Notes under the pieces: model-generated
The model's input: only the letters and a program-made list of their open reading frames with translations
Databases searched by the model: none
Told to the model about the DNA's origin: nothing
Program-made: the position numbers and the translations under genes
Origin: a virus
IMG/VR virus record: IMGVR_UViG_3300046009_008694
Coordinates: 1 to 23,136 of that record
Strand: one strand, 5' to 3'
Length of the DNA: 23,136 nt
Shown: in pieces, positions 3,336 through 17,421 of the stretch
Layout: each line of letters begins with the position of its first letter
How positions within the stretch are numbered: position 1 is the first letter of the stretch

Positions 3336-4466
3336 TTAAATTACATACATATTTCTTGGGAACGCTCTGAACTTCATTTGTTTGTTAAGATTTTCAGCAA
3401 TTAATGCCTCACGTTCCATTATTTTTTCAGGTCGTAATCTTGTCAATCTACCATCGGCACCAATTAATTCCTCAATTAATTTTGTTTTTTCATCTTTACC
3501 TTCAGTTGCTAATGTTGCGTAATCCATAGTTAATTCTGAGTCAGGTGTTTTTAAATTTCCTGAATACTTTCCTCTAACTTTAGACAACGTTTCTTTACAT
3601 CCTGCAACAAAATATCTTCTAACCCATTGTTGTGCCGGTTCATTTAAGTCAGCCCAATCAATTGAGTTCATCGGAATATCTGATGGTAGTTTAATAATAT
3701 CAGGATTAGCAGCTAAACAAGCGTCTCTATCTTCAGGTCCAACATCATAATACCAATACCAAACTTGATGATGATTTAATGATGAGCTACCAAAGTCAAA
3801 TTTACCACCAGGTGTTTGCATTAAATGAATAGCCTTTTTACCGTTTGGTAAACCTGTAATTCTATAAGTTAAATCACCACCAATAATTCTTCTCTGAATA
3901 TTAATCTCTTGCATTCTTAATAACATGTCAAATGCTGGCATCATAAAATACGAACCTGAACCACCCATTTGAGCGAAACCACCTGGCCCACCTATACCTG
4001 TACCACCTAAAGCCCCAAAACTCCATGGGTCAAATAAAATATTATTTAGAGTCGCCGGTGTAAACCATAATAATTCATTAATTTCACGACCTGCAGGAAT
4101 TTCATATATTTGTTGGTTTGGTACTAATGTAATAAAATCTTTTTTAAGTTCCCAATCCCCAAGTGGGTTAGATTGTAACCCAACTATTTTAGAATACGCC
4201 TGAGCATATCTATTTTCATAATCTAAACTTTTAGTTACAAATGCTCTTGATAGTGATTGTGTGTCTAAATTTAAATTGTATAATGAAGTCCATTGTGATT
4301 CAATTAACCAATCTTGGACATATTGAGAGTAATCCCCAATAGCAAATTCCAAAATTGAGTCCATTTGTTCGTCTTCTAATTCAATTGAACGAATTGGAGC
4401 TCCTAATACGTGTCTAACTTTTGTGTATAGCTGACTTCTGTAAGGTTCTGCGATTATTGTATTCAT
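3336..4466 (-). CDS. Neck / head-tail connector protein, possibly T4 gp13-like
   Basis: This 376-residue protein opens with YTKVRHVLGAPIRSIEL, followed by an acidic helical stretch (DEQMDSILEFAIGDYSQY). That arrangement, a 'LGAP ... IEL ... DEQ' helix pair, is seen in neck-type structural proteins of marine T4-like phages. Residues around 140-175 are Gly- and Met-rich (GGTGIGGPGGFAQMGGSG), perhaps a flexible loop. The C-terminal third is charged and helical. A late-promoter octamer lies 15 bases upstream. It is followed directly by the small beta-rich gene. Its proximity to gp14-like and gp15-like genes supports a role where head meets tail. The assignment to gp13 specifically is tentative; another head-tail adaptor is possible. 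Confidence 0.5.
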   Translation of the reverse strand: MNTIIAEPYRSQLYTKVRHVLGAPIRSIELEDEQMDSILEFAIGDYSQYVQDWLIESQWTSLYNLNLDTQSLSRAFVTKSLDYENRYAQAYSKIVGLQSNPLGDWELKKDFITLVPNQQIYEIPAGREINELLWFTPATLNNILFDPWSFGALGGTGIGGPGGFAQMGGSGSYFMMPAFDMLLRMQEINIQRRIIGGDLTYRITGLPNGKKAIHLMQTPGGKFDFGSSSLNHHQVWYWYYDVGPEDRDACLAANPDIIKLPSDIPMNSIDWADLNEPAQQWVRRYFVAGCKETLSKVRGKYSGNLKTPDSELTMDYATLATEGKDEKTKLIEELIGADGRLTRLRPEKIMEREALIAENLNKQMKFRAFPRNMYVI

Positions 4467-4481
4467 GAAGTGATATTTCTA

Positions 4482-4489
4482 TATAAATA
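4482..4489 (-). promoter_or_regulatory. Putative late promoter for the neck-like gene
   Basis: The - strand reads TATTTATA, flanked as GATATTTATAT. It ends 15 bases before the ATG at 4466 and overlaps the last bases of the upstream fusion gene. The spacing matches that of the same octamer before the tape measure gene (16 bases) and the baseplate gene (14 bases). Confidence 0.55.
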
Positions 4490-6007
4490 TCAATTCACAG
4501 TATAAATTAAATTTTCTGTTGGGATTTTAAATAAACTTGAACTAAAATCAACATCTTGATTTTTAAAAACATAGACAGGTTCATTTAAGTTAGAAAAAAT
4601 TAATAGGTCAGTATTAAACTTTTTAACAAATCCTTTGATTTTGATATGATACATTCCTTCAATAACTTCCGTACTCAAAATAGGTTTTACTTGAGCGGAT
4701 TGTATTTTATTATCAAAGTTTACTATTAAGTCAGTTCCTGCGAAATCTTCTTTGGAACCTAAACTACCTATAAGAGTTGCGGTCTTATCACCAAATTCTT
4801 TGTTGATTTTATTTGCAACATATGCCTCAAGGTCACCACCTTTTTTGTGTGTCCTATTCAAAAGAGCCATAATCTTATCTAAAGTTTTAGAACCTTCAAA
4901 TATTCTTTGTCCAAAACCGTATTTTTTTAGAACTAAACAAAATCTATCAATTTCTTGGATTTGTTTTTCAGGAGTTACACCAATAAATTCCAATTTTGGT
5001 TGATTTAATCTTTGTAGGACAATGTTAATATCCTCAACTAAAATCTTAAACCCAATATAGTTTGTGTTCAATTTATTAATAACTGAACGACCCTCTGTTT
5101 CATAGTTGTAAATACCTGAAGCGGAACCATGATGATATTGGTTATTTTCATACCACTTATCTGACATAACATTTTTCAAAGTGTTATCAATACATTTTCT
5201 ATATTTCCAAAGAACTGCTTTGTTGTTACTGAAAATATCTGCAAAATCAGATACATTATATTCTTCTTTTAAAAGTTTTTTATTAGAAATAGATTCAGTC
5301 AATTTTTTTTCAGTTTTTGATTTGTATAATTCATTAACAAATTCCCAATTAATTACATCCCAAAAGTTTTCAATATATTCGTCTCTTTTGTTTTGGTATT
5401 TTAAATAATAAGCGTGTTCCCATAAATCTAAACCTAACAACGGAAACCCACCCTTACTTATTATATTCATAAGTGGATTGTCCTGATTTGAAGTGGACAT
5501 CACTTTTAATCTACCAGTATCAGTTAAAACTAACCAACACCATCCTGAACCAAATCTTTTTCTTGAAATTTCTTCAAACTTAGTTTTAAAGTTACGGTAA
5601 GTACCAAATTGTTTAACTATTTTTTGAAACACTTCACCACTTGGTTTTTGTGGGGTGGGTGATAACATCTTCCAAAATAATGCGTGGTTAAATGCTCCAC
5701 CTGCGTTATTTCTTATTGTTGTACTATACTTCGATATTTGTTTAACAATGTTTTCTAATTCAACATCACCATAATCTTTTTTACGAAGAGCTGAATTTAG
5801 TTTTTTAACATACCCCTTGTAATGTTTTTGGTAATGAAACTTCATTGTTTCAGGGTCAATAAATCTTCTTAACGATGCGTATCCATAAGGTAGTTTATCA
5901 ATACCAATGGTTTTCATTTCGTTAATAAAAAATTTAGTTTCAGGTTGAGTATCCTCACCTGATATACTACTGACTAATGATTCTGATAAAATGTTTAATG
6001 ATTTCAT
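4490..6007 (-). CDS. Mn-type superoxide dismutase fused to a C-terminal nuclease-like domain
   Basis: Residues about 30-228 are a full Fe/Mn superoxide dismutase domain, which converts superoxide to oxygen and hydrogen peroxide. The four metal ligands are visible: H58 in KFHYQKHY, H108 in NNAGGAFNHALFW, and D194 and H198 in LDLWEHAYYLKYQN. G104 and Q175 (in STSNQDNPLM) match the manganese rather than the iron pattern. The domain ends with FWDVINWEF. A linker leads to a C-terminal region (about 285-505) not found in ordinary superoxide dismutases. Its last part, with E393, GTDLIVN (D426) and SAQVKP (Q439, K441), resembles a PD-(D/E)XK nuclease core in which Q replaces E. I chose the ATG at 6007; a TTG at 6013 overlaps the promoter motif. 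The gene lies between the SNF2 ATPase and neck genes and has its own late-promoter octamer. The superoxide dismutase assignment is firm; the nuclease fold is an inference. Confidence 0.88.
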   Translation of the reverse strand: MKSLNILSESLVSSISGEDTQPETKFFINEMKTIGIDKLPYGYASLRRFIDPETMKFHYQKHYKGYVKKLNSALRKKDYGDVELENIVKQISKYSTTIRNNAGGAFNHALFWKMLSPTPQKPSGEVFQKIVKQFGTYRNFKTKFEEISRKRFGSGWCWLVLTDTGRLKVMSTSNQDNPLMNIISKGGFPLLGLDLWEHAYYLKYQNKRDEYIENFWDVINWEFVNELYKSKTEKKLTESISNKKLLKEEYNVSDFADIFSNNKAVLWKYRKCIDNTLKNVMSDKWYENNQYHHGSASGIYNYETEGRSVINKLNTNYIGFKILVEDINIVLQRLNQPKLEFIGVTPEKQIQEIDRFCLVLKKYGFGQRIFEGSKTLDKIMALLNRTHKKGGDLEAYVANKINKEFGDKTATLIGSLGSKEDFAGTDLIVNFDNKIQSAQVKPILSTEVIEGMYHIKIKGFVKKFNTDLLIFSNLNEPVYVFKNQDVDFSSSLFKIPTENLIYTVN

Positions 6008-6011
6008 TAAC

Positions 6012-6019
6012 AATAAATA
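6012..6019 (-). promoter_or_regulatory. Putative late promoter for the superoxide dismutase fusion
   Basis: The - strand reads TATTTATT within GTATTTATTG, filling the 13-base gap between the SNF2 gene stop (6021) and the ATG at 6007. Only four bases separate the octamer from the ATG, so the transcript would have almost no leader. Confidence 0.45.
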
Positions 6020-6020
6020 C

Positions 6021-7778
6021 TTACTTATTGTTGATTTCGTTCAGGATTTGTTCCACAATATCTGCCGAGGTTCCATCATCACCCATAACGGTCCCAATAA
6101 TTTGTTTTTTATGTATTAGAATATCATAAATTACACCTTCAATTGTGTTTTCAAATAAAGGGTAAAACACCGAAACATTATTTTTTTGACCATAACGATA
6201 TGCTCTATCTTCAGCTTGTGCGTGGTCTGCTGGAACAAATGATAAATCATTCATAATAACTGCTTCAGCGGCAGTTAAGGTTAAACCGACACCAGCTGCT
6301 TTCATATTACCACAAAAAACTTGTATCTTATCACTCTCTTGGAACTTGTCCACAGCGTCCTGTCTTGCAGGTTTTGTAGATGACCCGTCCAAATAAACTG
6401 ACTTCTTACCAAAGTGTTCGTGTATCTTTTTAAGGGGGTCTGTGAAATTACTAAAGATGATTACTTTTTTACCTTGTTCAATAATGTTTTCTGCAAGTTC
6501 AATTGTTGTTGCAATTTTTTCCTCAGCAATAACTTGTCTCACCTTCATTAATTTTGTGAATTGTATTGAAAGTGATTTTGATTCATCTTGTCTATTATTA
6601 TACCAATCATAATACTCACCCATCAAACCTTCGTATAGTTTTGATTTTAAACGAAGGTAAACGGGTGTTATAATTTTTTCAGGTAAATCTAAAACATCGG
6701 TTTTAAGTCTTCTTAATATTTGACGAGAAGTTCTTTCTCTTAATTCTTCCAAATTAGATGCTCCTGTAACATTCCAAACTTTCTTATTACCAACTCTAAA
6801 TTGATACCCACCACAATAACGAATAGCGTACGCCATCCAATTTTGACTAACTGGACTATCAATAAGTTTTAAAATATTATAATAATTCATAGGACGAGAA
6901 GTCATGGGAGTTCCCGTTAATAACCAAAGTCGTTTAATATCTTTGGTAAAATCCATTATAATCTTTGTTCTTTGAGCTTGAGCGTTTGAAACATAATGTG
7001 CTTCGTCAATAACAATCAAATCAAAATTTGATTTAAAAATTATTGAGTTTTCTTTGTCCTTTGGGTCGTGGAAATTTTTAAGGATGTCGTAGTTTGTAAT
7101 AACAAAATCAGCGTCTTCGTATTTTTTACCTTCACAGATATAAACACTTCTATCAGTATAGTTTCTAATTTCCCTTTCCCAATTTAATTTCAAAGATGCT
7201 GGACATATAATTAATGTTCTTTTAGCACCACTTTCTAACGACGCAATTACTGTTGATGTGGTTTTACCCAATCCCATGTCATCCGCTAAAATGAATTTAT
7301 TATTTTTTAATAATTTTTCTATCGCTTCTTTTTGGTGTGCCAATGGTGGACGATTTCCATATTTTGAGTAATCAACCTCAACAACATTTTCCTTATACTC
7401 TTTAATTACCGCCGCCTTTGGTATCCAAAAGTCATGGATAGTATCCGCACTGAAAATCTTACCCCATATATGATATGATTTATCTTTCTCAATTAAAATC
7501 TTCTCAACGTAAATTTTATCGGGTTCTTTAATGAATGGGTTGTCCTCAACAAGTTTTTGAGAAAAATATGAATCAATATCAACCCACTTTTTAGCAACCT
7601 TTGGGACAACTGAATTGTAATCAATTACATAATCACATTGAGCTCTTGTCGGAACATATTTCTTGTTTGACTCAATTTGTTTTTTTAATTTAAGGATATA
7701 GTTATTTGACCCCTGATAATTCTCAAGAATAGAAATTGCTCTCTGTTCAACACTTAAATGTCCTGTGGATGTGGTCAA
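6021..7778 (-). CDS. SNF2-family DEAH ATPase/helicase
   Basis: This 585-residue superfamily 2 protein of the SNF2 branch probably translocates on or remodels DNA, for example at forks or in recombination. Motif I is DDMGLGKT (residues 166-173), motif II is DEAH (258-261), motif III is LLTGTP (about 286-291), and motif VI is QAEDRAYRYGQ (about 520-530), typical of SNF2 ATPases. Residues 1-140 form an N-terminal region I cannot assign. There is no in-frame ATG upstream of the motifs. An in-frame TAA lies just upstream, so the TTG at 7778 is the likely start. No clear late-promoter octamer precedes it, unlike the structural genes, which fits an earlier expression class. It shares a short divergent region with the gp14-like gene. 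Distant functional analogues include the T4 UvsW helicase, but I do not claim orthology. Confidence 0.9.
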   Translation of the reverse strand: MTTSTGHLSVEQRAISILENYQGSNNYILKLKKQIESNKKYVPTRAQCDYVIDYNSVVPKVAKKWVDIDSYFSQKLVEDNPFIKEPDKIYVEKILIEKDKSYHIWGKIFSADTIHDFWIPKAAVIKEYKENVVEVDYSKYGNRPPLAHQKEAIEKLLKNNKFILADDMGLGKTTSTVIASLESGAKRTLIICPASLKLNWEREIRNYTDRSVYICEGKKYEDADFVITNYDILKNFHDPKDKENSIIFKSNFDLIVIDEAHYVSNAQAQRTKIIMDFTKDIKRLWLLTGTPMTSRPMNYYNILKLIDSPVSQNWMAYAIRYCGGYQFRVGNKKVWNVTGASNLEELRERTSRQILRRLKTDVLDLPEKIITPVYLRLKSKLYEGLMGEYYDWYNNRQDESKSLSIQFTKLMKVRQVIAEEKIATTIELAENIIEQGKKVIIFSNFTDPLKKIHEHFGKKSVYLDGSSTKPARQDAVDKFQESDKIQVFCGNMKAAGVGLTLTAAEAVIMNDLSFVPADHAQAEDRAYRYGQKNNVSVFYPLFENTIEGVIYDILIHKKQIIGTVMGDDGTSADIVEQILNEINNK

Positions 7779-9667: not shown

Positions 9668-12600
9668 ATGGCTACAGCAAACAAAGTATTCGTTTCTCCA
9701 GGTGTATACACTTCAGAGAGAGATTTATCTTTTGTTTCACAAAGTGTTGGTGTAACTACTTTAGGTATTGTCGGTGAAACCCTTAAGGGACCCGCTTTTG
9801 AACCTATATTCATCACTAATTATGATGAATTCCAAACTTATTTTGGAGGTACGTTACCTGAAAAATTTGTGAATACACAAATCCCAAAATATGAAGCAGC
9901 ATATATTGCTAAATCATATTTACAACAATCTAACCAATTGTACGTAACAAGAATTTTAGGTCTTTCAGGTTATGATGCAGGACCATCTTGGTCAATAACA
10001 ACAATTGCAAATGTTAATTGTAGTACTGTCGGAATTACGGGTGGAACACCGTTCTCTTTTAACTTCACAGGTAGTACAGCATCTACAACATCGGTTCAAT
10101 TTACTTCAGCAGTCCCAAGTGTTATAAGTGGTAATACTTACTACTTAAATGGATATACACAATTTGATGGTGGAACATCAACTATTTTAGGTGATTTACA
10201 AACACAACTTCACGATATTATAGTAACTAACAGTACATCAGCAACTTCGGTTTATTATTTTGGTCCAGTTTCGGGAACTCAAGCAACTGCAAATGTTGTC
10301 GCGGGTTTAACAACCGCAACAAATGTATTTGGTGTTAATAGTGTAACCTCAACAACAATCGATTATTGTTCAGGAACAAATGACGCTTGGTTCTACGCTA
10401 ACTTTGTACCACCTTCTAATGGTAACGCATATTATGGTAACTCATATTATACAAATGTTTCTTCATTATCAGGAACAGCTTACGGAGTTGCGGGTTCATT
10501 CACAGGAACTGTGTCAGGTTTTTATTATGGATTTTCGGGTACAAGTTACTCAGGATATAATAATCTTGTAGTTGCAACATTACGTTCAAGAGGTATTACT
10601 CAATACTCTACTACATTACATGGTCCTCAATACCAAGTTACTGGTACATCAGATGTGACAATGATTGGTACTGGAAGTTATTCAGGGATAAGTCAAAATC
10701 CTTATGCAACTTTCTTAATCTCAGGTAGAACTTATGAAAATGATACGTTTAGTTTTGAAACATCATTTACAACATCACAATCTAATTACATTAGTAGTGT
10801 ATTTGGTGTTGAAAACTTTGCTAAAGACAGAACTGAGGTTCCTCTATTTGTCGAAGAAAGATATTCAACGATGTTAAACTATGGATATAGTCAAGGTTAT
10901 ATTCGTGGGTTAAATGCTAATAACTTTATTAAATTAGGTGATGCAAGAAATCCTTTAAATACTGACACTATTGGTTTCTATTTGGAGAGATATCAAACAC
11001 CATCGTCTCCATGGGTTGTTTCTGAACTTAGAGGTAATTTAGTATATAAATTATTCCGTGTTTATACAATTCCTGATGGAAATGCTGCAAACAGAGAAGT
11101 TAAAGTATCTATTGCAAACATTTCGTTTAATAATGGAACATTTGACTTAATAGTTAGAGATTTCTATGATACAGATGCTAACCCTACTGTTATTGAAAAA
11201 TTCACTAATTGTACTTTAGACGCAACTAATAATAGTTATGTAGCTAAAAAAGTTGGTTCTATTGATGGTGAATATGCAATTCTTTCTAAATATATTATGT
11301 TAGAAATGAGTGAAGAAGCTCCATTAGACGCGCTACCTTGTGGATTTGAAGGTTTTATTACAAGAAGTTATACTAATGGTACATCACCATTCCCAATTTA
11401 TAAGACACATTATTATATTCCTGGTGAGCAAATATCAAACCCTCCGTTTGGTAGTGATACAGGAGCAGATAACGCACTTGTAAGTCCGGGTGATAATGTA
11501 AGAAGAACTTATTTAGGTATCTCAAGTTCAATTGGAATTGACGCTGATTTTTATGACTACAAAGGAAAACAACCTGGTACATTATGTGCGGAAGGTAACT
11601 ATTCTAATTGGCCAAATACAACAAAAGGTTTCCACATGGATAGTGGAGCTACAGTTGTAACATTAAGTGGTGTTACTCAGTTTGAAGTTGGTGATGGTTC
11701 ATTTAGTTCTGAACCTACAGAAAATACAAATCCATATTACTTCTTATACTCAAGAAAATTCAGTTTCTTAGTACAAGGTGGTTTTGACGGATGGGATATC
11801 TACGATGAAAGAAGAACAAATGATGACTCTTATGCTCTTGGTCAAACCAAGTTTAAAGCAGGTTATTGTCCACAAGCTCCGTATCCAACATCAACAGGAT
11901 GGGGTTCATTCAAGATTATCACAATCGAAGATGGAACTATTGATTATGGTAATACTGACTATTACGCATACTTGTTAGGTATTAGAACATTTGCTAACCC
12001 TGAAGTAACAAACATCAACGTCCTTGTAACACCTGGTATTGATTATGTTAATAATAGTGGATTAGTTGAAGCATCTATAGATATGATTACAAACGAAAGA
12101 GCTGACTCAATCTATGTTTGTACAACTCCTGACTTTAATCTATTACAAAACTCAACTTCGATGGATAATTTAATTTACCCACAAGAAGCGGTTGATAGTT
12201 TAGAACAAACAGGAATTGACTCTAACTATACAGCGACTTACTACCCATGGGTTCTTACTCGTGATACAGTAAATAACACACAAATTTATCTTCCAGCAAC
12301 GGCTGAAGTTACTCGTAACTTAGCATTAACTGATAATATCGCTTTTCCATGGTTCGCAACTGCGGGTTACACAAGAGGTATTGTAAATGCGGTTAGAGCA
12401 AGAAAGAGATTAACTCAAGAGGATAGAGACACTCTTTACAAAGGAAGAATTAACCCAATCGCAACTTTCAACGACGTTGGAACTGTTATTTGGGGTAATA
12501 AAACTCTTCAAATTGCTGAATCAGCGTTAGATAGAATTAACGTTAGAAGATTGTTGTTACAAGCTCGTAAATTAATTTCAGCGGTGGCTATCAGATTGTT

Positions 12601-12841
12601 ATTCGAACAAAATGATAACACAGTAAGACAACAATTCCTTGACTCTGTTAATCCAATCTTAGATGCTATCAGAAGAGATAGAGGATTATACGACTTCCGT
12701 GTAACAGTTCAAAATACACCTGAAGACTTAGATGCTAACCAATTAGTAGGTAAGATTTACATCAAACCAACTAAAGCATTAGAGTTCATAGATATTGAGT
12801 TCTTAATTACACCAACAGGAGCGTCTTTCGAAGACATCTAA
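9668..12841 (+). CDS. gp18: Contractile tail sheath protein, T4 gp18-like, enlarged
   Basis: This protein forms the contractile sheath around the tail tube. The N terminus, VFVSPGVYTSERDLSF, and the following VGVTTLGIVGETLKGPAF are typical of phage sheaths. The C-terminal part (INVRRLLLQARKLISAV, then FEQND...RQQFLDSVNP and a final beta strand EFIDIEFLITPTG) is the conserved sheath core domain. At 1057 residues it is far longer than the T4 protein (about 660). Most of the excess is a Ser/Thr/Gly/Tyr-rich segment at about residues 110-297. This is inserted between LYVTRILG and VVATLRSRG, and is likely a surface domain. A late-promoter octamer is 32 bases upstream and an intrinsic terminator follows 20 bases downstream, so it is a single-gene unit. 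Confidence 0.95.
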   Translation: MATANKVFVSPGVYTSERDLSFVSQSVGVTTLGIVGETLKGPAFEPIFITNYDEFQTYFGGTLPEKFVNTQIPKYEAAYIAKSYLQQSNQLYVTRILGLSGYDAGPSWSITTIANVNCSTVGITGGTPFSFNFTGSTASTTSVQFTSAVPSVISGNTYYLNGYTQFDGGTSTILGDLQTQLHDIIVTNSTSATSVYYFGPVSGTQATANVVAGLTTATNVFGVNSVTSTTIDYCSGTNDAWFYANFVPPSNGNAYYGNSYYTNVSSLSGTAYGVAGSFTGTVSGFYYGFSGTSYSGYNNLVVATLRSRGITQYSTTLHGPQYQVTGTSDVTMIGTGSYSGISQNPYATFLISGRTYENDTFSFETSFTTSQSNYISSVFGVENFAKDRTEVPLFVEERYSTMLNYGYSQGYIRGLNANNFIKLGDARNPLNTDTIGFYLERYQTPSSPWVVSELRGNLVYKLFRVYTIPDGNAANREVKVSIANISFNNGTFDLIVRDFYDTDANPTVIEKFTNCTLDATNNSYVAKKVGSIDGEYAILSKYIMLEMSEEAPLDALPCGFEGFITRSYTNGTSPFPIYKTHYYIPGEQISNPPFGSDTGADNALVSPGDNVRRTYLGISSSIGIDADFYDYKGKQPGTLCAEGNYSNWPNTTKGFHMDSGATVVTLSGVTQFEVGDGSFSSEPTENTNPYYFLYSRKFSFLVQGGFDGWDIYDERRTNDDSYALGQTKFKAGYCPQAPYPTSTGWGSFKIITIEDGTIDYGNTDYYAYLLGIRTFANPEVTNINVLVTPGIDYVNNSGLVEASIDMITNERADSIYVCTTPDFNLLQNSTSMDNLIYPQEAVDSLEQTGIDSNYTATYYPWVLTRDTVNNTQIYLPATAEVTRNLALTDNIAFPWFATAGYTRGIVNAVRARKRLTQEDRDTLYKGRINPIATFNDVGTVIWGNKTLQIAESALDRINVRRLLLQARKLISAVAIRLLFEQNDNTVRQQFLDSVNPILDAIRRDRGLYDFRVTVQNTPEDLDANQLVGKIYIKPTKALEFIDIEFLITPTGASFEDI

Positions 12842-12860: not shown

Positions 12861-12887
12861 ACCCTCACAGAAATGTGGGGGTTTTTT
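12861..12887 (+). terminator. Intrinsic terminator after the sheath gene
   Basis: ACCCTCACA (12861-12869) pairs with TGTGGGGGT (12874-12882), with one G-T pair, around a GAAA tetraloop. It is preceded by AAAAAG and followed by TTTTT. It starts 20 bases after the sheath stop codon. Confidence 0.9.
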
Positions 12888-12897
12888 ATTTGTATAA

Positions 12898-12905
12898 TAT
12901 TTATA
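12898..12905 (+). promoter_or_regulatory. Putative late promoter for the HAD hydrolase gene
   Basis: TATTTATA within AATATTTATA lies between the sheath terminator and the ATG at 12909, with three bases between octamer and ATG. If it is a promoter, the mRNA would be leaderless or would use the second ATG at 12915. Confidence 0.5.
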
Positions 12906-12908
12906 GGT

Positions 12909-13724
12909 ATGAAAATGTACTTAGTTGAAAAATTTGAAGAAGAAGTTACACCTGATTTAAAGTATTATGCTTTTGATTGGGATGATAATATTCTTACAAT
13001 GCCGACTCAGATTATCTTACAAGATGAAAATGGTGATGAAGTTGGTATGTCCACAGAAGATTTTGCGGAATATCGTGTAAAGGTTGGAGTTGAACCTTTT
13101 GAATATAAGAAAAAGACTATTGTAGGGTTCGCTGACGACCCATTTAGGAACTTTGGTTCTAAAGGTGATAAAAGATTCATTATAGATGCTATGATGGCTA
13201 AAACAGGACCTGCTTGGGATGATTTTATGGAAGCAATTAACGGAGGTTCAATTTTTTCAATAGTTACTGCAAGAGGACATTCACCATTGGCTTTACGTAG
13301 AGCAATTGAAAATATGATTGAAACTAACTTTAGAGGTATTTCCAAAAAAGAATTAGTTAAAAATCTAAGAAAGTTTAGAAAGTTTTCAGGAGAAGAAGAT
13401 ATGAAGGATAAAGAACTTATAGATGCTTATATGGATATGAATAAGTATTATCCTGTAACTTTTGGTGAGGGTTCGGCACAAAGTCCTGAAGTTGGGAAAG
13501 TTAAGGCTTTAAAAGAATTTCAAGAATATGTTAAATATTTGGCCAATAGACTTAAAAAACCAGTAATGTTTAAAGATGATATAAGTAATAATTTTATTCC
13601 TAAAATAGGATTTTCAGATGATGATTTAAGAAATCTAGAAAAAGTTAAAGATGAATTATCAAAAGACCCAGAAAATATTATTCAAACAATATCAACACAT
13701 GGTGGTAAAAAGCAAAACTATTAA
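12909..13724 (+). CDS. HAD-superfamily hydrolase (probable phosphatase)
   Basis: This 271-residue protein has the four HAD elements in order. Motif I is YAFDWDDNIL (nucleophile D23, acid D25). Motif II is SIVTARGHSP (T120). A lysine-containing helix (EVGKVKALKEFQEY, about 195-208) fits motif III. Motif IV is KIGFSDDDLRN (D237-D239). HAD enzymes usually remove phosphate from sugars, nucleotides or nucleic acid ends; the substrate cannot be read from the sequence. Between motifs I and II is a cap-like insert (about residues 30-112), with another charged insert at about 140-190. The ATG at 12909 is used because it follows the octamer; an in-frame ATG at 12873 lies in the terminator. Its place between sheath and tube is unusual for a T4-like tail cluster. 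Confidence 0.85.
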   Translation: MKMYLVEKFEEEVTPDLKYYAFDWDDNILTMPTQIILQDENGDEVGMSTEDFAEYRVKVGVEPFEYKKKTIVGFADDPFRNFGSKGDKRFIIDAMMAKTGPAWDDFMEAINGGSIFSIVTARGHSPLALRRAIENMIETNFRGISKKELVKNLRKFRKFSGEEDMKDKELIDAYMDMNKYYPVTFGEGSAQSPEVGKVKALKEFQEYVKYLANRLKKPVMFKDDISNNFIPKIGFSDDDLRNLEKVKDELSKDPENIIQTISTHGGKKQNY

Positions 13725-13732
13725 TATTTATA
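13725..13732 (+). promoter_or_regulatory. Upstream copy of the late-promoter motif before the tail tube gene
   Basis: TATTTATA directly follows the HAD stop codon, 108 bases before the tail tube ATG. A second copy stands at 13800-13807. The tube is needed in many copies, so two promoters would make sense, but this copy may be chance in A/T-rich DNA. Confidence 0.3.
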
Positions 13733-13799: not shown

Positions 13800-13807
13800 T
13801 ATTTATA
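13800..13807 (+). promoter_or_regulatory. Putative late promoter for the tail tube gene
   Basis: TATTTATA within GACTATTTATAATAAAA ends 33 bases before the tube ATG at 13841. The spacing matches that before the sheath gene (32 bases). Confidence 0.55.
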
Positions 13808-15315: not shown

Positions 15316-15323
15316 TATTTATA
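15316..15323 (+). promoter_or_regulatory. Putative late promoter for the tape measure gene
   Basis: TATTTATA lies in the 26-base gap after the frameshift-extension stop, 16 bases before the ATG at 15340. The leader is A-rich without a Shine-Dalgarno sequence. Confidence 0.55.
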
Positions 15324-17413: not shown

Positions 17414-17421
17414 TATTTATA
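17414..17421 (+). promoter_or_regulatory. Putative late promoter for the large baseplate gene
   Basis: TATTTATA lies 14 bases before the ATG at 17436. Here the sequence extends to a near-palindrome, TATTTATAAATA, so it also contains TATAAATA, the T4 late-promoter consensus, at 17418-17425. Confidence 0.55.

Follow-up and report, generated by a model that had tools for sequence, protein, structure and literature searches.

A minus-strand open reading frame (6007-4490; ATG at 6007, stop codon 4492-4490) in a 23,136-nucleotide stretch of viral DNA, hereafter the window (IMG/VR record IMGVR_UViG_3300046009_008694, positions 1 to 23,136), encodes a 505-amino-acid protein that joins a superoxide dismutase (SOD) to a region with the predicted fold of a nuclease (Table 1). 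Motifs resembling the cleavage sites of T4-type prohead proteases lie at the domain boundaries. Reading from sequence, we give slightly better than even weight to the view that the protein is a late precursor which is taken into the prohead and cleaved there, and that SOD and nuclease are then ejected with the genome.

Table 1. Features of the SOD-nuclease locus, in coordinates of the window
Feature	Position	Strand	Remarks
SOD-nuclease precursor gene (precursor status predicted)	4490..6007	-	505 aa + stop; unbroken in 156/156 full-coverage relatives
N-terminal extension, residues 1-30	5918..6007	-	ends FINE↓MK immediately ahead of the SOD domain (arrow, predicted cut)
Fe/Mn superoxide dismutase domain, Mn-type, residues 36-229	5321..5902	-	Pfam, PDB profile, Foldseek
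Disordered inter-domain linker, residues 230-251	5255..5320	-	pLDDT <50 at 234-251; two predicted prohead-protease sites
C-terminal region, residues 252-505	4493..5254	-	helical 252-~385; PD-(D/E)XK core ~385-505
Late-promoter-like TATTTATT, upstream of the SOD-nuclease gene	6012..6019	-	TATTTAT in 51/52 relatives
Neck / head-tail adaptor gene, downstream conserved neighbour	3336..4466	-	PHROG 211; synteny
SNF2-type DNA helicase gene, upstream conserved neighbour	6021..7778	-	Pfam SNF2-rel_dom 1.2e-29; synteny

Relatives of the protein are encoded at no fewer than 594 viral loci in IMG/VR. We fetched 158 of these: 156 carry a single uninterrupted two-domain ORF and the other two run off the contig. 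A read error or accidental fusion is ruled out by the 156 relatives that cover the gene in full, all of them uninterrupted and in the same gene order, and the two-domain gene of the original prediction is thus real. The extension of ~275 residues first noticed after the SOD is real, and its C-terminal region (252-505) accounts for ~254 of them. Nearly every locus of sufficient length preserves the order helicase, SOD-nuclease, neck gene, small ORF and DNA polymerase, and the neighbour earlier described as a neck gene indeed matches a head-tail adaptor PHROG.

Elsewhere in the window, the tail sheath gene (9668-12841, plus strand) encodes 1057 amino acids with a large N-terminal insertion, and the sheath families match its last ~300 residues only. 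Between the tail sheath and tail tube genes lies a gene for a conserved protein (12873-13724, plus strand; probable start MKMYLVEKF, ~12909), which looks HAD-type phosphatase-like by eye from its DWDDNIL motif; a PHROG search gave no match to this product.

A search of other phages for the same architecture gave a divided answer: the fusion is frequent in IMG/VR, but among the INPHARED/GenBank phages searched it is absent, the matches there being free-standing or SOD-only. Nor was it found among the bacterial genomes searched, and a search of 84,980 species genomes with one pattern returned no relative of the C-terminal nuclease part. The bacterial SOD relatives are mostly Bacteroidota, and none of 80 extends more than 20 residues past the SOD match. 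We therefore rejected a host gene or a prophage-borne bacterial fusion as the source, the nuclease having no relative in that single-pattern search and the bacterial SODs ending at most 20 residues past the SOD. In a tree with bacterial relatives the phage SODs group as a single, fully supported clade, on a stem of 0.66 substitutions per site. One member of the family has been deposited already: UniProt A0A6J5L953, from an uncultured Caudovirales phage (501 aa), has a C-terminal domain that is 75% identical and is annotated as a superoxide dismutase only. The carriers are giant T4-like phages, uncultured and belonging to a very common group. The SOD-nuclease gene belongs to the syntenic core of this abundant clade, whose SODs are Bacteroidota-like, and so it is no rarity.

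The gene was also said to have a late-promoter motif. The late-promoter-like element is TATTTATT at 6019-6012, and 51 of 52 relatives have TATTTAT upstream of the gene. In two genomes TATTTATA lies a short distance ahead of the start codon, on the coding strand, in 41 genes out of 261 and 50 out of 354, where 2-6 and 3-7 are expected by chance. Most of the genes behind it have structural products (tube, neck, terminase, scaffold-like, baseplate-like) or are of unknown function. Its reverse complement is the T4 late box TATAAATA. The T4 box itself precedes 14 genes in each of two genomes (2-8 expected) and was set aside as the promoter, being not clearly enriched; the enriched element is TATTTATA, which we infer to act as a promoter. 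Its spacing to the ATG clusters near 11-12 and 20-24 nucleotides, and the shorter class perhaps yields leaderless mRNAs. Within the window it occurs on the coding strand ahead of late genes, at 4482-4489 (read 4489-4482, ahead of the neck / head-tail adaptor gene), 12898-12905 and 13725-13732, with further sites at 13800-13807, 15316-15323 and 17414-17421. Given the late-type motif and the set of genes that share it, expression together with the virion genes, as originally proposed, is likely.

The predicted cut sites were examined in 52 relatives that are less than 92% identical. At E30, just before the SOD, all 52 have [LIV]xE followed by methionine or alanine and then lysine ([LIV]xE↓[MA]K). 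Two further sites lie in the linker, whose residues 234-251 are predicted to be disordered (pLDDT <50). The E238 site, LTE↓S (codon 5296-5294), reads [LIVM]xE in 52/52 relatives, with an entropy of 0.27 bits; the E248 site, LKE↓E (codon 5266-5264), does so in 51/52, with 0.14 bits. The other linker columns mostly have 1.2-3.5 bits, and E238 and E248 are the sole near-invariant positions of the linker. Leucine or isoleucine stands two residues ahead of each glutamate, and the next residue is usually S/T at the first site and G/S/Q/A at the second. The three [L/I]xE↓ motifs at the domain boundaries look like T4-type prohead-protease sites and bracket the SOD exactly. Two details of the sites are less typical: P1' of the E30 site is methionine in 40/52 relatives, which is unusual among the sites seen here, and LKE↓E in the window's own protein was counted against cleavage. 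A Peptidase_S77 prohead protease was present in 6/11 related records, all of them fragments or uncertified, and a Gp23 capsid gene in 7/14. In three genomes the major capsid protein has the matching site LINE↓A, with the site at its residue 60. In T4, the ejected head protein Alt is cleaved at ITE-6 and LTE-619 (PMC5694885).

Residues 1-30 are predicted to be a propeptide or packaging signal. An export signal was considered and rejected: the phage N-terminus is charged and not hydrophobic, whereas the bacterial relatives that extend as far N-terminally have hydrophobic Tat- or lipoprotein-like leaders. An HMM of the N-terminal tag of this clade (MKKIIRLTESDL...) gave no significant match to the N-terminus or the linker of the SOD-nuclease, and no packaging signal was therefore recognised by homology. 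The HMM likewise gives no support to reading the linker as another MKKIIRLTESDL-type tag.

Are the glutamate motifs more than chance? We scanned without bias the 86 ortholog groups common to three genomes for conserved [LI]xE[AGST] within divergent sequence (flank identity <42%) and obtained six matches. Three fall in a 238-aa protein whose gene lies between those for portal and protease, one is in the SOD-nuclease linker, one is in a 441-aa protein beside terminase ([LI][NV]E↓API[DG]Y), and one is in a peptidase-like protein without a known head role, so the scan is not perfectly specific. When E was swapped for each of the 19 other residues, there were nine matches in total and at most two per residue. 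Six matches for glutamate against nine for 19 residues indicate that an unusual constraint acts on glutamate motifs of this type, chiefly in proteins of the head region. Near N-termini, [LI][TSN]E is enriched in TATTTAT-bearing genes (Fisher 2.6e-4, 3e-6 and 0.03), and [LI][TSN]D and [LI][TSN]K show no such enrichment; a looser control, [LI]xK, also shows mild enrichment in late-type genes.

Two side observations concern these motifs. The 238-aa protein (L101:1604-2320; G003:115604-116320, plus strand), which lies between portal and prohead protease and has three conserved xE sites, had no match in a family search; it is a likely prohead core protein that is shredded in maturation. At least 12 proteins in the records of two genomes, G001 and G003 (for example L111:12370-13395 and L123:13628-14965, both minus strand), have an N-terminal peptide in common, MKK(I/V)IRLTESDL(T/V)(R/K)(I/L)(V/I)K(R/K)(V/I)I.E, which contains xE sites and often stands behind TATTTAT. 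The proteins that bear it are otherwise unrelated, mostly short and unannotated, and most of the late ones have no Pfam family. We regard the peptide as a candidate tag that would target many packaged proteins to the capsid. A search of the open-access literature for the tag sequence found no paper.

We propose the following course of events. The SOD-nuclease would be made late, as the precursor of two virion-cargo enzymes, and its N-terminal ~30 residues may help to incorporate it into the prohead core. Once the shell is complete, a T4-type prohead protease would, judging by the motifs, cut after E30 and after E238 and/or E248, releasing an MnSOD of native length (~residues 31-238) and a PD-(D/E)XK nuclease (~249-505). 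Both would remain in the head with the DNA and be ejected into the next host, where the nuclease may process the phage's own genome or cut the DNA of the host or of competitors, and the SOD may remove superoxide during DNA entry. The protein is then probably a precursor that is cut apart, which the original prediction did not foresee, and the mature enzymes may not be fused. A more specific form of this idea, to which we give a little less than even weight, is that of a bacteriophage polyprotein: SOD and nuclease would enter the prohead in equal numbers, be cut by the maturation protease and be injected together, so that from time zero the entering genome would have protection against oxidation and an effector that cuts DNA. 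The original prediction had offered action late in infection and carriage in the virion with injection as alternatives; the second is favoured because of the conserved prohead-protease-like sites. It also counts against packaging that a nuclease kept alongside DNA would have to be held in check or act selectively.

The protein might instead be an intact bifunctional enzyme that is never cut or packaged and works in the cytoplasm late in infection. Its SOD would then protect replicating DNA, and its nuclease would degrade host DNA or trim recombination intermediates. That the late-type motif speaks of timing only, that the upstream neighbour is a DNA helicase, and that the SODs of cultured jumbo phages are free-standing and encoded among metabolic or replication genes are all in keeping with such an enzyme. 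Still, we think it unlikely, since it leaves unexplained why the only near-invariant residues of a disordered linker are two prohead-protease-like motifs, and why a third stands exactly ahead of the SOD.

Modelled on its own from 52 sequences, the C-terminal part gave a confident structure (pLDDT 93.6, pTM 0.85). The top PDB match in Foldseek was I-Ssp6803I (E 4e-3, probability 1.00), followed by archaeal Hjc. In VIA-align 2 the leading match was archaeal Hjc (Z 8.4; 103 residues at 3.8 Å), NhoI, DpnI, PvuII and HhaI scored Z 5.5-7.1, and these matches all fall on residues ~135-254 of the model. Rows 1-31 of VIA-align and the best rows of Foldseek are nearly all PD-(D/E)XK enzymes. We firmly assign the modelled region to the PD-(D/E)XK nuclease superfamily, by fold only, in line with the nuclease-like character first ascribed to the extension. 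E394, D426, Q439 and K441 (143, 175, 188 and 190 of the C-terminal part) are invariant in 52 relatives and would form the expected E...D...(E/Q)xK catalytic set, in its Q variant. Ahead of the nuclease core are ~130 helical residues with an invariant G-R-S-x-x-N motif, for which no clear structural match was obtained. By sequence, neither PHROGs nor Pfam nor a phmmer search of the PDB named a family for the domain; tblastn in phages gave only matches with E≥4; and the Hjc family (PF01870) had no match in a Pfam scan of the C-terminal part nor in the genomes that carry the gene.

Relatives of this domain also occur outside the fusion. The genome of locus L059 (G003) encodes a free-standing one (E 2e-12; L101:4104-5060, G003:118104-119060, plus strand) that conserves the E, the D and QVKP and begins MKITISE↓G. 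Its gene lies between the prohead protease and a large gene directly before the capsid protein gene, and this place in the head gene cluster is a second hint of head association; the free-standing form was found only in close relatives of this phage and at one distant locus. In BFVD, an uncultured marine phage protein of 1113 aa (A0A8D9CCA0) contains the same ~254-residue C-terminal domain (TM 0.84, 22% identity) within a different, larger protein.

T4 endonuclease VII clears branched DNA for packaging. The C-terminal domain could be a Holliday-junction or branch-cutting nuclease of similar use, with the SOD as passenger or protector. The first place of Hjc in VIA-align 2 points this way, as does the same D-x12-(E/Q)-x-K spacing in Hjc. 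In six related records, searches for RuvC, Hjc and RusA gave no match and none for Endonuclease_7 exceeded the cut-off, and for this reason the resolvase reading was kept; the absence of other resolvases is weak evidence, as these records are not certified complete. Restriction and homing endonucleases have the same fold and score nearly as well, and a resolvase explains neither the SOD nor the cut sites. We consider it distinctly improbable.

Residues 36-229 are firmly identified as a SOD. Both Pfam domains score far above their cut-offs: Sod_Fe_N over residues 36-116 (1.7e-22, 80.1 bits against 27) and Sod_Fe_C over residues 122-226 (2e-40, 137.4 bits against 20.9). The family profile matched solved MnSODs in the PDB at 1e-71, and in the structural comparison called for originally the predicted structure, of moderate confidence in its SOD part, superposes on MnSODs at 45-48% identity (Foldseek). 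The complete set of ligands and the Mn-type pair noticed at first inspection (H58, H108, D194 and H198; G104 and Q175) are invariant in 25 diverse relatives, and so are H62, Y66, W156, W196, E197 and Y201, residues with roles known from SODs in general. The three histidines, one aspartate and outer-sphere Tyr/Gln that define Fe/Mn SODs are here H58, H108, D194, H198, Y66 and Q175, and the G104/Q175 pair suggests manganese as the metal. That the domain is catalytically idle, serving the nuclease as a scaffold for dimerisation or as a carrier of metal, would suit its long separate branch from the bacterial SODs, but is very improbable in view of the metal ligands and outer-sphere residues that are invariant across the 25 sequences and the 45-48% identity to active MnSODs.

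Each element of the proposed system is of a known kind: Fe/Mn SOD, PD-(D/E)XK nuclease and head cargo trimmed by a prohead protease. In the open-access literature we did not find SOD and nuclease combined in a single precursor that has conserved cut sites within it, and the phrase 'phage-encoded superoxide dismutase' returned no paper. Bacterial MnSODs (e.g. that of Sphingobacterium sp. T2, 6gsc) have the same ligands but are free-standing and end within 20 residues of the SOD match, whereas the phage protein continues into the nuclease. Vibrio phage 2.275.O and Pseudomonas phage MIJ3 likewise encode Fe/Mn SODs; these, however, are free-standing, ~180-190 aa long, encoded among metabolic or replication genes and only 23-31% identical. 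Hjc, I-Ssp6803I and NhoI-type nucleases resemble the last ~120 residues in fold and in the layout of catalytic residues, but at 10-18% identity, with Q replacing D/E in the -xK motif here and with the extra ~130-residue helical part.

The internal head proteins of T4 (IPI-IPIII and Alt) are made late, matured by gp21 and cut after glutamate in (I/L)xE-type motifs near their termini (PMC5694885, PMC9958956). The likeness lies in probable late expression and in (I/L)xE motifs, from which cleavage and packaging in the head core are predicted here. The T4 proteins are single-enzyme or small and end-trimmed, whereas here two catalytic domains are joined, with conserved sites between them. If the proposal is right, a capsid maturation protease can make two cargo enzymes in a fixed ratio from one precursor, and the late-type motif combined with [L/I]xE sites would offer a sequence rule for predicting ejected cargo in uncultured phages. 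The closest functional parallel is chlorovirus PBCV-1, which packages a late-made Cu/Zn SOD (A245R) and DNA-degrading restriction endonucleases in its virion (PMC7019647). PBCV-1 differs in being a virus of eukaryotic algae, with an unrelated Cu/Zn SOD, separate genes and no prohead-protease precursor described there. Phages of the clade studied here would, if the proposal holds, deliver antioxidant enzymes with their DNA, as a bacterial-virus counterpart of the virion SODs of giant viruses.
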